DNA of 64,000 nt. Source: Endozoicomonas montiporae CL-33. GTDB lineage: Bacteria > Pseudomonadota > Gammaproteobacteria > Pseudomonadales > Endozoicomonadaceae. The translations under genes and the position numbers were made by a program. The DNA is taken from assembly GCF_001583435.1 (NCBI RefSeq), contig NZ_CP013251.1:5097215-5161214 (forward strand), read 5' to 3'. The notes beneath the pieces were generated by a model. That model saw nothing but the letters and a program-made list of their open reading frames with translations. It was not told the origin of the DNA and searched no databases. Shown here one piece after another: positions 12,447 to 60,741 of this stretch (positions are counted from its first letter, which is position 1; each line of letters opens with the position of its first letter).

Positions 12447-13595
12447 ATGGATATGAAACAACAATTAACTGCCCTGTTTGAGAAAACCTTTGGAGCACAG
12501 CCCGAGTTATTTTATCAGGCTCCGGGACGGGTCAACCTGATTGGTGAGCACACCGATTATAACGACGGTTTTGTACTGCCCTGCGCCATTGACTACCAGG
12601 CCATCATTGCAGCTACCCCAAGAGACGATCAGAAGATTGTTGTAACAGCGGCAGCTTTTGACGGACAAACCACCGAATTTGAACTGGCCCTGCCCATTGA
12701 GTCCAGTGAAAACGCCAGCTGGAGCAACTACGTCAGAGGCGTGGCAACCGCTCTGCTGGAACGGGGACTGGAGCTGAAGGGTGCCAATATGGCAATCATC
12801 GGTAACGTACCTCAGGGTGCCGGGCTGTCATCATCTGCCTGCCTGGAGGTTTGCGCCGGGTTGGCATTGACACGCATGGCCGGTCATGATGTCAGTCTGA
12901 AAGACCTGGCTTTAATTGGTCAGGAAGCTGAAAACCAATTCGTTGGTGTTAACTGCGGCATTATGGATCAGATGGTGTCAGCCCGTGGTGAGGAAGGCCA
13001 CGCCATGCTGCTGGACTGCCGAAGTCTGGATACCCGCTCGGTTGCAATTCCGGAAGGCGCCGCAGTAGTGATTATCAACTCCAACAAACAGCGTGGGCTG
13101 GTTGATTCGGAATACAACACTCGTCGTCAACAGTGTGAGGCCGTAGCCAGACATTTTGAAGTGAAGGCTCTCAGGGACATCAGTGTCGACATGCTGGAAG
13201 CCCGTAAAGACGAGCTTGATGAAGTGGCATATCGCCGGGCTCTTCATGTGGTAACAGAAGACGTCAGAACCCTGGAAGCTGCGGAAGTGATGCCAAAGGG
13301 TGACCTGAGACGTATGGGTGAGCTGATGGCTGCGTCCCACGCATCCATGCGGGATGATTTTGAAATTACGGTGCCCGAGATTGACGCCATTGTCGATATC
13401 GTCAAGGCAGTCATTGGCGACGAAGGCGGCGTTCGCATGACCGGTGGCGGCTTTGGAGGTTGCGTGGTTGCCCTGGCTCCGGAAAGCAAGATTGAAGCGA
13501 TCAAACAGGCCATTGATAGCCACTATAAAACCATGACCGGACTGGTCGCTGATATTTATGTCTGCAAGGCCAGCCAGGGTGCCTCTGTGCTCTGA
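12447..13595 (+). CDS. galK: Galactokinase
   Basis: This GHMP-family kinase phosphorylates galactose at C1. It is 382 aa, the same as E. coli GalK. The signature GRVNLIGEHTDYNDGFVLP lies near residue 28. The ATP loop is in PQGAGLSSSAC, and the third GHMP motif is MTGGGFGGC. The C-terminus YVCKASQGASVL aligns with the E. coli end, so the gene is complete. Its TGA stop lies inside the first bases of the structured RNA repeat that starts at 13590. Confidence 0.98.
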   Translation: MDMKQQLTALFEKTFGAQPELFYQAPGRVNLIGEHTDYNDGFVLPCAIDYQAIIAATPRDDQKIVVTAAAFDGQTTEFELALPIESSENASWSNYVRGVATALLERGLELKGANMAIIGNVPQGAGLSSSACLEVCAGLALTRMAGHDVSLKDLALIGQEAENQFVGVNCGIMDQMVSARGEEGHAMLLDCRSLDTRSVAIPEGAAVVIINSNKQRGLVDSEYNTRRQQCEAVARHFEVKALRDISVDMLEARKDELDEVAYRRALHVVTEDVRTLEAAEVMPKGDLRRMGELMAASHASMRDDFEITVPEIDAIVDIVKAVIGDEGGVRMTGGGFGGCVVALAPESKIEAIKQAIDSHYKTMTGLVADIYVCKASQGASVL

Positions 13596-13907
13596 CTCTC
13601 CCCGCCCTATCGGGCGAGGGTTCTTGATCGCTCAAGAACGTTTCTGTTTCACAGTTCGTTGCTCAGGGAGCAGGCTTGGTTATCGCATAAAAGCTCCGCA
13701 GCGGGAGCTTTTACGATGGCGAATCAACCCATGCTCCCCAAGTCTCACACAAACTCCGCAGACTTGACATCCCGTGTGCCCCACGGTAGGTCTACAAGAG
13801 ACAGAAGCAAGAGTAGCAAGCTACGTACAAATACTCAACCGGAACGCTCTGCGTTCCCGCCTTATATCACCGCCCGATTGGGCGATGCTTTACGGCGAAA
13901 CTGGTAA
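13590..13907 (+). ncRNA. Structured RNA repeat, copy 1 (~318 nt)
   Basis: This is a stretch of about 318 nt with a second copy at 43192-43511. Hairpins seen: CCCGCCC/GGGCGAGGG (13601-13620), TTCTTGA/TCAAGAA (13621-13638), AAAAGCTCC/GGGAGCTTTT (13689-13712), CCGTG/CACGG (13772-13786), GTAGC/GCTAC (about 13813-13824), GGAACGC/GCGTTCC (13841-13857) and CGCCC/GGGCG (13871-13884). Between the copies, two stems show full base-pair swaps and others keep pairing by G-U wobble, so the RNA fold is under selection. No transposase or nuclease gene accompanies it. HEARO/omega-RNA remnants of IscB/TnpB elements are a possible relative by size and mobility, but I could not confirm this. Strand is inferred from the flanking genes. 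Confidence 0.7.
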
Positions 13908-41699: not shown

Positions 41700-42129
41700 A
41701 CACTTAGCCTGAAACAACATCATCCGGGAGAGGGGTCACTCTGAGACCTCTCCCGCTTTAAATTTTTCCAGACAGCTGCATCCCCACTTCTATACTGGTT
41801 GATCTTTCACCAAGAGATTCAGCCAATGTCTGATACGAACATCTATCCGGTTCCTGACCACTTTCAGCAAGCCTGGATGACACTCTGAAAAATTAGGTAT
41901 CAGTCGGGGTGATCGCATCTGCATCTATATGCCTATGATCCTCGAGGCAGTCTTTGCCATGCTGGCTTGCGCCAGAAGCGGAGCGGCTCATACTGAAGTC
42001 AACTGTTAATATTTTCACGGCAGGTCATATCAATGGCAAATCAATATAGCCTGCTGTCATTTGTGCTGGATATATTTCAATCCTGTGCCAACCTCATACC
42101 TACTAAATCAATGGGTTGAGGAGGTTGTA
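41700..42129. other. Joint of a tandem duplication (acs fragment, then add tail)
   Basis: From left to right: a copy of the acs leader (about 41760-41825), the first 20 codons of acs, an internal acs piece, then from about 41993 a copy of the end of add and its downstream spacer. Nothing else is coded. Confidence 0.85.
41826..41992 (+). pseudogene. Decayed 5' fragment of acs
   Basis: The frame opens as in acs ([15 protein letters not shown]) and then stops. A deletion follows, and from about 41914 the DNA matches acs 44033-44120, including the stretch for RVCIYMPMI with several substitutions. It ends abruptly where the add tail begins. Confidence 0.85.
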
Positions 42130-43197
42130 ATGATTAGATTCAGACCGTTCCTGATAGCAGCATTGTTGTGTATTGCTTTTCCTGCTGCTTCTGTTGCCAG
42201 CGTGTTTTCCTGCCCTGATGTTGATGAAATAACAATGACGGAAAATAAAGATGCACCTGACGACCGTCGATGGCAGGCCAGCCTGAAAAAACTGCCAAAA
42301 GGTATGCCTGCACTGTTTGCCAATGCCAGATTCATATCGAATGGAAAGTATGCTAAAGACTCCGGAGCAACGAAGAGTCTGCACAGCTCGGATATGCCTA
42401 TTAAAATTCACTTTCATGGAGCAATGTACCTTGATGACTCAACACTGACTTATGCATGCGCTTACATCGCTGATAACTCTGATTACTCAGGTCTGTTAAT
42501 TTTACTGCAACTCAGTGACATCTACATTCCGGAGTCTAATGAGATGCCCTTATTACTGATGCCTGCTGGCAAACACTGGCAACGTTACATTAACCATAGG
42601 GGAGCTTTGGAAGAGTCTATTACATTCAAAGCGTGCGAAAAATCTGCGAAGGATTGTGCTTTCCATCTACCATGGGGTGCTGTCAGATCAAAGACGGATA
42701 CTCCCAATAAATATGAAGGTAAAGAAGCATTATTAATCCAACTAATAGCAGATCCTTACCCCTATTATACCGATGACGACGATTGTGTTTCTTATAATCA
42801 AAACATCTTTAAAACGTACTTTTCTGAGTCAAATTCAGTCCAACATAGTCTTATAAATGGATTAAGAGAAAGCACCACATTTAATTACGCTCAAATCGAT
42901 CTGTATGATCACGGTTATATCGATATTAATGAGTTCACCAAAGCCAGAGAAGGTAACGAAGACAATCAAAAGTGCAACTTAGACTCGAGGCCTGTTGCTA
43001 AATGCTCCTGTTCTTCCACAAACTTCCTGAAAATGGCTAATGCAAAAAAAGGGCATGTTATGGTGGATTTATTCGCTGCTTACGACGATAAACACAAGGC
43101 GACCAATGCGGCTTGCAGCCTGTTTTTCATACCTGGTTCAACCAGACAGCCATTATTACCACACAAACATTCTGAAAGGCATGGTGGAGAACTCTGA
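42130..43197 (+). CDS. Secreted protein of unknown function, paralogue 2
   Basis: From the ATG at 42130 (GGAGG 8 bases upstream) the product is 355 aa; a longer reading from 42061 is rejected. It has a signal peptide (FLIAALLCIAFPAASVA) and the same pattern as paralogue 1: SVFSCPDVDEITM, SLHSSDMPIKIHF, SAKDCAFHLPWG, DINEFTKAREGNEDNQKC and KCSCSST. The middle (about 195-260) is diverged and longer, so the copies are not recent. Its TGA stop falls at the very start of structured RNA copy 2. Confidence 0.8.
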   Translation: MIRFRPFLIAALLCIAFPAASVASVFSCPDVDEITMTENKDAPDDRRWQASLKKLPKGMPALFANARFISNGKYAKDSGATKSLHSSDMPIKIHFHGAMYLDDSTLTYACAYIADNSDYSGLLILLQLSDIYIPESNEMPLLLMPAGKHWQRYINHRGALEESITFKACEKSAKDCAFHLPWGAVRSKTDTPNKYEGKEALLIQLIADPYPYYTDDDDCVSYNQNIFKTYFSESNSVQHSLINGLRESTTFNYAQIDLYDHGYIDINEFTKAREGNEDNQKCNLDSRPVAKCSCSSTNFLKMANAKKGHVMVDLFAAYDDKHKATNAACSLFFIPGSTRQPLLPHKHSERHGGEL

Positions 43198-43511
43198 CTC
43201 TCCCCGAACTTTCGGGCGAGGGTCCTTGATCGCTCAAGGACGTTTCTGTTTCACAGTTCGTTGCTCAGGGAACAGGCTTGATTATCGAATAAAAGTTCTA
43301 CAGTGGGAGCTTTTACGATGGCGAATCAACCCATGCTCCCCAAGTCTCACACGAACTCCGCAGACTTAACATCCCGTGTGCCCCACGGTAGGTCTACAAG
43401 AGACAGAAGCAGAGTAGCAAGTTACGTACAAACACGCAAACGGAATGCTTTACGCATTCCCGCCTTATATCCCCGCCCGCATTGGGCGAGGCTTTACGGC
43501 GAAATTGGTAA
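43192..43511 (+). ncRNA. Structured RNA repeat, copy 2 (~320 nt)
   Basis: This is the counterpart of 13590-13907, roughly 85-90% identical by eye. Stem changes keep pairing: TCCTTGA/TCAAGGA (43223-43240) against TTCTTGA/TCAAGAA, and GGAATGC/GCATTCC (43442-43460) against GGAACGC/GCGTTCC. In the AGTTCT and GTTAC arms, G-U pairs replace standard ones. The first hairpin is rebuilt as CCCGAA/TTCGGG. Both copies begin CTCTGACTCTCCCCG and end near TTTACGGCGAAAYTGGTAA. It sits between the secreted paralogue and acs. Confidence 0.7.
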
Positions 43512-52932: not shown

Positions 52933-53009
52933 GGGCCCATAGCTCAGTTGGTTAGAGCAGTCGACTCATAATCGATTGGTCGCAGGTTCAAGTCCTGCTG
53001 GGCCCACCA
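52933..53009 (+). tRNA. ileX: tRNA-Ile2, anticodon CAT (lysidine type)
   Basis: It is a 77-nt cloverleaf with an encoded CCA end. The acceptor arms are GGGCCCA/TGGGCCC, and the anticodon loop is CTCATAA, giving CAT. The anticodon arm and variable loop (CGACTCATAATCG, TTGGTCGC) match tRNA-Ile(CAU) rather than elongator or initiator tRNA-Met. TilS would convert the C34 to lysidine to read AUA. Its 3' end is the likely attachment site of the integrated element to the right. Confidence 0.93.
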
Positions 53010-60042: not shown

Positions 60043-60741
60043 CTAAACCCTCCAGCCACATACAACAGCATTAAGCCTACGGGCTTCTTTTCTGGCTTGC
60101 TGGTGAGAGTTAAACGACAGGACAATGTAACCACGTACACGACGGTTACACAGGATTGGTGAATGACCTTCAAGTAAGGCAAGACGGCAGGTGATAGCCA
60201 TAGGACAGTCTCCTTGTATTGTGGAGCCTGTCACCCAGAGTGATAATTCTGATTTGGTGACAGGACTGAAAGGGTTATCACCACCGGCATACAAGGAAAC
60301 CGGCCTACCCGAAGGTAGCCCCTTCAGCCCTGCCATAAACTGGTAGGTATGCTGAAAATCTGGCAACAAAAAAGGACGATAAGCGTCCTGTTGCGCCTTG
60401 TATAATACCGGGGTGATAATCCGGGTTACAGATTTTGCTGTAACGCTAATTACATTACCGTAACGTTCCATTACTGGCAATTGGTAATTTAAATATAGGC
60501 TGGTGGTTTGTCCTTCCTCTTGCCCTTGCTGGCTGTTTTTCTTGTGTTGTTCTTTGTGGTGTTCATGCTCCGCAAACCCACATAGCACAAGGGTTACCCT
60601 CTGTTGCTCTTTTGGTTGCTCATCACTGGGCAATACTCGCCCCCTGACGGTTATGTCATTTAACATCTCATCACCTGAACTTGAATGCGCCAGAGTAGCA
60701 AGGGGACTTTTCTCCCTTTGGGACTTCTTACCCCTTTTCAC
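60043..60741 (-). CDS. Ash/Icd-like phage-satellite protein (tentative)
   Basis: The 232-aa protein has a poorly structured, charged N-terminal third (EHEHHKEQHKKNSQQGQEEG). Its middle reads FMAGLKGLPSGRPVSLYAGG, which resembles the Ash family motif of P4-like prophages. The end (CRLALLEGHSPILCNRRVRGYIVLSFNSHQQARKEARRLN) resembles host division inhibitor Icd-like proteins. Both traits go with P4-type elements. The assignment is from memory of the families and is tentative. Confidence 0.5.
   Translation of the reverse strand: MKRGKKSQREKSPLATLAHSSSGDEMLNDITVRGRVLPSDEQPKEQQRVTLVLCGFAEHEHHKEQHKKNSQQGQEEGQTTSLYLNYQLPVMERYGNVISVTAKSVTRIITPVLYKAQQDAYRPFLLPDFQHTYQFMAGLKGLPSGRPVSLYAGGDNPFSPVTKSELSLWVTGSTIQGDCPMAITCRLALLEGHSPILCNRRVRGYIVLSFNSHQQARKEARRLNAVVCGWRV

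Follow-up and report, generated by a model that had tools for sequence, protein, structure and literature searches.

The repeat of about 318 nt that occurs twice in a 64,000-nt stretch of the Endozoicomonas montiporae CL-33 genome (the window, by which the whole of the analyzed stretch is meant) raises the question of what kind of molecule its conserved structure belongs to, and of how an element with no evident gene of its own could be maintained. A sequence-only reading had described the repeat and its compensatory base changes and had proposed either a stand-alone relative of the HEARO/omega RNAs or a new class. The repeat is real and lies where it was reported, with 91% identity between the copies over 318 nt; its borders required correction, since the mobile units occupy 13592-13903 and 43194-43507 and the last four bases of the interval first assigned, GTAA, are the insertion target.

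TnpB is an RNA-guided DNA-cutting enzyme related to the CRISPR nucleases, and its omegaRNA, as known from ISDra2, takes its guide from the flank of the element, the TAM being equal to the target. The best explanation overall, which we consider probable, is that the repeat is a tnpB-less IS200/IS605 mobile element that has kept both ends and a minus-strand omegaRNA scaffold, and that borrows TnpA and TnpB. The support for it in the sequences consists of homology of the core to tnpB 3' ends, termini in common with tnpB elements, a covarying fold, a possible pseudoknot, a promoter-like start and flanks that differ between copies.

Copies, borders and insertion sites

The following features define the two insertions.

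13592..13903 (312 bp), minus strand: ORF-less element of probable IS200/IS605 type, copy 1; borders from copy 2, relatives and the empty galK end of genome G003
43194..43507 (314 bp), minus strand: ORF-less element, copy 2; from the genome search and comparison of the copies
13904..13907, minus strand: target/TAM TTAC (GTAA on the plus strand) of copy 1; from the flank common to type A copies
43508..43511, minus strand: target/TAM TTAC of copy 2; from the alignment of element ends and flanks
12447..13595, plus strand: galK (Pfam), its native stop CTG TAA replaced by the element-supplied CTC TGA
42061..43197, plus strand: ORF upstream of copy 2, with the element's TGA as its stop; no Pfam match

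Nowhere else in the 5.43 Mb genome was a full-length copy found; another six matches correspond to one end each. No ORF of at least 100 amino acids lies wholly within either element in the ORF list, and the ORFs that overlap the elements extend past them. Each insertion lies 3' to a fixed tetra- or pentanucleotide that is not duplicated, which is the pattern of IS200/IS605 elements, the target being TTAC in the copies designated type A and TTTAT in those designated type B. The flanks differ from copy to copy. For copy 1 the uninterrupted site is available for comparison: galK of G003 (L187) has no element and ends in CTG TAA, and the joined flanks of copy 1 reproduce this end; the joined flanks of copy 2 also give CTG TAA. 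Both copies have the properties by which PATEs are recognized, in that they are short and ORF-less, have palindromes near both ends and do not duplicate the target.

Native stop codons recur as insertion sites, the TAA of the target being exchanged in register for the TGA of the element (NNG TAA to NNC TGA). This is seen at 13592 and 43194 in the window and at L149 (=L098), L155 (=L105, orthologous to L100), L013 (=L049), L014 (=L057), L156 (=L106), L116 and L135. Of 56 distinct ends of ORF-less and tnpB elements together, 9 have at least 100 open codons before the site in the stop frame, compared with 22 of 671 target sites in the window (Fisher p = 2.7e-4), where the background is a single window and the element ends are related to each other; in the other two frames the corresponding counts are 3 of 56 and 177 of 671. 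Two other short features were found elsewhere in the window by the Rfam search, a C4 antisense RNA at 60253-60340 (minus strand) and a tRNA at 52933-53006 (plus strand). C4 antisense RNA and tRNA are known from P1/P4-like phages.

Homology to the 3' ends of tnpB genes

A core of 177 nt is present in 12 of the 37 genomes of the family. A BLAST match to it in another family of the order (genome G264, locus L118) is the 3' end of a tnpB gene, where the last tnpB codons and the end that follows them align colinearly with the core on its minus strand, without the enlarged apical hairpin. A covariance model of the core, R1, was built from 11 ORF-less copies together with the tnpB-linked L118 and searched against all 37 family genomes, matches in the 10 genomes of the genus being counted at E <= 0.001. 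It gives 40 matches in these 10 genomes, of which at least 22 span the 3' end of a tnpB gene in the same orientation: 9 of 9 in G007, 7 of 18 in G003, 5 of 9 in G008, 1 of 3 in the host genome and 0 of 1 in G009. The remaining 18 lie away from every tnpB place among those listed; the sequences listed for them contain no tnpB, and some are fragments. The host-genome match at a tnpB gene (L010) is modest, at 36 bits and E = 1.2e-5, and the host's other full tnpB element, L009, gives no R1 match, its omegaRNA region holding an insertion. Six of the G003 copies have identical R1 scores, which suggests that they moved recently.

In wider searches R1 matched 8 of 390 genomes of the order and 9 of 369 of the class, the host genome included. 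Cores occur in G638 (eight copies), G735 and G523, which are genomes of one family, and in G475 and G605, which are genomes of another; in all five the enlarged stem with GCTTGGTTWTCGC is present and the ends are different, and within the fetched loci none matched either of two tnpB queries. Further matches in the class occur in G427, G613 and G673. The eight G638 copies show 90-98% identity to L225 over about 340 nt and lie at different places. Among the tnpB loci listed, none has the enlarged apical stem. Pieces resembling an omegaRNA with neither tnpB in view nor the enlarged stem were also seen, at L168 (G013), L160 (G028) and L055/L056 (G003).

The scaffold motif AAGYCTGYGGAGYTYGTGTRAGAC was found in 30 stretches among 84,980 genomes, and in no viral contig. 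By tblastn, tnpB is found in none of the 12 Endozoicomonas stretches (L199 and L221 have less than 150 nt upstream), and it lies just upstream of the motif in 9 of 10 Vreelandella/Halomonas stretches, L220 being the one with none; in seven of these nine the protein match stops about 5 nt before the motif. Eight stretches belong to Anoxychlamydiales, two of them with tnpB, four with the motif at the very end and two (L207, L208) with apparent tnpB remnants. The occurrence of tnpB or its remnants with the motif in Candidatus Anoxychlamydiales (L203, L212, L207, L208) suggests transfer between phyla.

The proposed connection with omega RNAs is thus supported in its TnpB form, given the homology to tnpB 3' ends, the position at the element end, the possible pseudoknot and the common ends, and is unsupported in its IscB/HEARO form. 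Judging from these comparisons, the repeat very probably belongs to the ORF-less elements of IS200/IS605 type and has a TnpB-type scaffold on its minus strand.

Element ends and resident tnpB types

Four partial end matches in the host genome flank a pair of elements, each about 1.3-1.5 kb long and with one intact minus-strand tnpB (L009, L010). The earlier statement that no transposase or nuclease gene is present is true only inside the element. The left end of the window element is the tnpB 3' side of L009 and L010. Read on the tnpB strand, short elements of type A start after TTAC and finish in GTCAG, and type B elements, which are relatives in other species, start after TTTAT and finish in GTCAA; L010 follows TTTAC and L009, as read from its sequence, apparently follows TTTAT. 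The end type of the ORF-less element equals that of the resident tnpB in all seven genomes typed for both (type A in G000, G016 and G025; type B in G003, G008, G013 and G021), the tnpB typing being based on close relatives of the L010 tnpB, with 1-5 copies per genome. Outside these seven are G007, which has tnpB of both types and a broken ORF-less fragment only, G009, whose copy has no clear ends, and G023 and G024, whose tnpB was not typed. That the core remains the same where the end type has changed is an argument that something maintains it.

Several other arrangements of the ends were observed. G003 has, as type A pieces, two of about 50 nt that consist of ends only (L283, L284), with the left and right hairpins fused and no core, and one type A left end with no tnpB in its stretch. 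The host genome contains another two-copy repeat of about 400 bp (L011, L012), which has only the right end of the window element in common with it. In G638 the copies L225, L232, L239 and L266-L270 are about 340 bp long and have other ends (CCGTTCTCCGAAACTTACC...), with no close TnpB.

The predicted scaffold and its start

The predicted parts of the RNA are as follows.

13592..13802 (211 nt), minus strand: predicted TnpB-type omegaRNA scaffold, copy 1; from R1 homology to tnpB 3' ends, covariation, fold (z = -6.4) and extent
43194..43404 (211 nt), minus strand: predicted omegaRNA scaffold, copy 2; from R1 homology and extent
13572..13591, minus strand: predicted guide of copy 1, in the galK 3' end; from its position directly 3' of the scaffold
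43174..43193, minus strand: predicted guide of copy 2; from its position
13778..13780, minus strand: stem-1 loop GGC, possible 5' partner of a pseudoknot; from the reading of stem-1 loops
13594..13596, minus strand: GUC at scaffold positions -5 to -3, possible 3' partner of the pseudoknot; the same positions as used in ISDra2 in the available text of PMC10097598
13666..13738, minus strand: long central stem, corresponding to stem 3 with an enlarged apical hairpin; none of the tnpB-linked relatives listed has it
13810..13838, minus strand: promoter-like TTGAGT-17-TACTCT, copy 1; from the pattern in aligned ORF-less elements
43411..43439, minus strand: promoter-like TTGCGT-17-TACTCT, copy 2; from the same pattern

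Because the scaffold terminates at the element end, the flanking gene would serve as the guide. At the other end of the RNA, all 15 aligned ORF-less elements have the pattern TTG[ACT][GC][TGC], a spacer of 16-18 nt (17 in 14 of the 15) and TANNNT, the last of these stopping 19-22 nt short of the end of AGA[TC]CT. In shuffled regions the pattern occurs in 0.36 of 15, and on the other strand in 0 of 15, figures that are suggestive only, because the pattern was chosen after the sequences had been viewed and the sequences are related. The position of the pattern places the predicted RNA start at about 13802 and gives the scaffold its length of 211 nt; a scaffold of this extent folds with z = -6.4 relative to shuffles.

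Fold, covariation and strand

The stems named by the sequence-only reading are present, and the repeat folds far better than its shuffles on both strands (z = -6.9 on the minus and -6.2 on the plus strand; on neither did any of 100 shuffles fold as well). That reading took the plus strand; the minus strand is most likely the RNA strand. The consensus fold is the more stable on the minus strand, at -68.8 against -51.9 kcal/mol; the G-U and C-A cells in the 48 pairs common to both strand folds, at 10 against 12, point to neither strand.

Covariation was measured in a wider alignment. It comprises 19 cores, 10 from Endozoicomonadaceae and 9 from two other families, over 39 pairs, and has 93.3% standard pairs and a covariation of 0.456, compared with 0.218 +/- 0.012 in shuffles, none of 500 of which reach it. 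Six controls with a slid structure give at most 0.135, a margin that is inflated because the 39-pair structure was built from the alignment on which it was evaluated. Stricter measures are weaker: 19 pairs are changed on both sides compared with 14.9 in shuffles (4 of 500 reach 19), and there are 47 further pair types compared with 45.8 (177 of 500 reach 47).

Pairing between the stem-1 loop and the element end was examined at 55 loci, of which 14 gave no stem, 8 gave a wrong stem and 33 were readable. At least three pairs are possible at all 33, as read by eye without a chance control and with many of the loci being close copies of one another. Fifteen loci pair GGC with GUC (the middle pair being G-U), four, L168 among them, pair GAC with GUC, and L118 alone pairs GGC with GCC; eight pair GUUC with GAAC and one GUUG with CAAC; L268 and L270 have pairings of this kind with one wobble, and L227 and L241 form three of four pairs. 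In both type A and type B elements the 3' partner occupies positions -5 to -3. A terminal pseudoknot of the ISDra2 type can therefore form, on the evidence of these base pairings, with compensated versions in different lineages.

At L101, L105, L112 and L058 the long stem contains inserted small palindromes rich in GC (GGGGCCGCCTAGGC and GGGGGCGCCTAGCCCC, for example), in one arm or in both. L105 has one in each arm, and the orthologous insertion L100 has none.

Candidate partners

The host genome contains two full-length tnpB elements, L009 and L010. The L010 TnpB matches solved TnpB structures (8bf8, E = 7e-70) and has three Pfam TnpB domains. The residues D, E and D, which we take to be catalytic, are kept in its alignment to 9yyg. 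There are ten matches to Y1 transposases in the host genome, and when their surroundings were compared with the element ends the best result was a 17-nt match of 94% (E = 0.1), at two loci; none of these Y1 loci is a tnpA locus with clearly matching ends.

In G638, which has eight copies, the L118 TnpB query gives no match. This genome has six PF07282 (TNB-domain) matches, two of the fetched loci having a 474-aa frame of a different kind, and a comparison of its element ends with three of the six loci gave a 14-nt match only (E = 0.1) and no credible common end. One species of the genus, G002, has 85 tnpB matches.

Alternative explanations

The core might instead be a passive relic, in which case the element would be a PATE, a deletion derivative that keeps its ends for TnpA, with the omegaRNA region hitch-hiking without function. 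The available text of PMC7290912 describes a PATE-like element that retains the final 58 nt of tnpB and the whole RE, no close TnpB is found in G638, and the coreless ends-only pieces of type A in G003 indicate that a core is not required for such elements to exist. Against it, the core with its compensated stems has been kept in three families, even where the end type has changed, and 15 of 15 aligned elements have a promoter-like start; we consider this explanation unlikely. The structure could also be selected as single-stranded DNA, for TnpA or for another step of transposition, as the terminal palindromes of the TnpA kind and the wobble counts, which favour no RNA strand, would allow; the core, however, is internal to the elements, shares homology with the 3' ends of tnpB and is able to form the omegaRNA pseudoknot, which makes selection at the DNA level alone quite improbable.

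If the repeat encoded a stand-alone small RNA with some other job, antisense regulation of the upstream galK and of the ORF at 42061-43197 would be an example, and in both copies the minus-strand promoter-like sequence does point into the 3' end of the upstream gene. Different genes lie beside the copies, however, and many copies do not adjoin a long gene in that frame, so that such a role is very improbable. An IscB-type omegaRNA (HEARO), for which there is a general resemblance only, is scarcely credible: the Rfam search that the sequence-only reading recommended returned no family at the gathering score in either copy and nothing credible up to E = 1, HEARO included, and the relatives are linked to tnpB. 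The Rfam matches below the gathering scores, with E of 0.58-0.79, are to HPnc0580 (twice), HgcC and mir-4887.

Proposed mechanism and implications

A tnpB-less element that lacks a protein gene and has a TnpB scaffold may make use of TnpB produced elsewhere in the cell. Transcription from the promoter-like sequence would produce the scaffold together with about 16-20 nt of flank as the guide, and the TnpB of a resident tnpB element would load this scaffold in trans. When TnpA excised the element, TnpB would cleave the donor site left empty (TTAC and then the flank), and repair after the cut would restore the element copy, so that the element would borrow TnpA for its movement and TnpB for its retention. 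Whether the scaffold RNA is made and used in trans by resident TnpB we regard as evenly balanced on the sequence comparisons; the absence of the enlarged apical stem from all tnpB-linked relatives listed and the lack of a close TnpB in G638 count against it. The broader proposal, that these are long-lived guide-RNA-only transposons which have their own promoter and enlarged stem, use resident TnpA and TnpB, and have their ends and targets re-matched to the tnpB type of the host, is tentative, and we place it somewhat short of an even chance.

If the guide-only reading is true, these would be selfish elements whose sole cargo is a guide RNA securing their own retention. Should the scaffold work in trans, a single TnpB could be shared by many guide-only elements, an arrangement that would parallel in nature a nuclease served by numerous separate guide loci and might be a halfway stage to CRISPR-like systems. 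A compact, naturally separate guide RNA would also be available for comparison with the tnpB-linked ones.

Comparison with known systems

A literature search by titles and the beginnings of abstracts, in which the omega sign is unsearchable, recognized no tnpB-less omegaRNA elements of this kind, and their absence is not shown by such a search. Mobile ORF-less relatives of IS605, the PATEs, are already known, one of them with a whole RE; the window element is therefore an ORF-less form of an established kind, and the earlier suggestion of a new class was too strong. What is apparently new, as far as the sequences indicate, is a lineage of ORF-less elements that has an enlarged apical stem of its own, extends over three gammaproteobacterial families and has ends matching those of the resident tnpB (7 of 7 typed).

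The available text of PMC10097598 describes for ISDra2 a scaffold at the element end whose bases -5 to -3 pair with the stem-1 loop, together with a stem 3b that is flexible and unresolved. The window element resembles ISDra2 in the position of its scaffold and in the pairing open to its stem-1 loop, and differs from it in the absence of tnpB, in having a promoter-like start of its own and in the length of the scaffold, predicted as 211 nt compared with 116 nt, with an enlarged apical stem and more terminal hairpins. The enlarged hairpin sits where ISDra2 has stem 3b.

PATEs, in the available portions of PMC3119063 and PMC7290912, are short elements with no ORF, palindromes near their ends and no target duplication, related to IS605/IS1341, and the window element shares all of these features. 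In the same texts they appear as fused ends or single remnants, whereas the present elements have retained a covarying omegaRNA core in three families; the whole RE of the PATE-like element mentioned above may, by analogy, hold an omegaRNA.

A further comparison is within the host genome, where the IS1341-type, tnpB-only elements L009 and L010 have their ends and the 3' half of the omegaRNA in common with the window element, and differ from it in having an intact tnpB and a short stem 3. A guide RNA apart from its nuclease gene has parallels in other systems. Stand-alone IscB omegaRNAs reportedly occur in Ktedonobacter, and IStrons without tnpB exist, in which the guide RNA is likewise separate from the nuclease gene; the former belong to another nuclease family than the one considered here, and the latter are intron-bearing elements.
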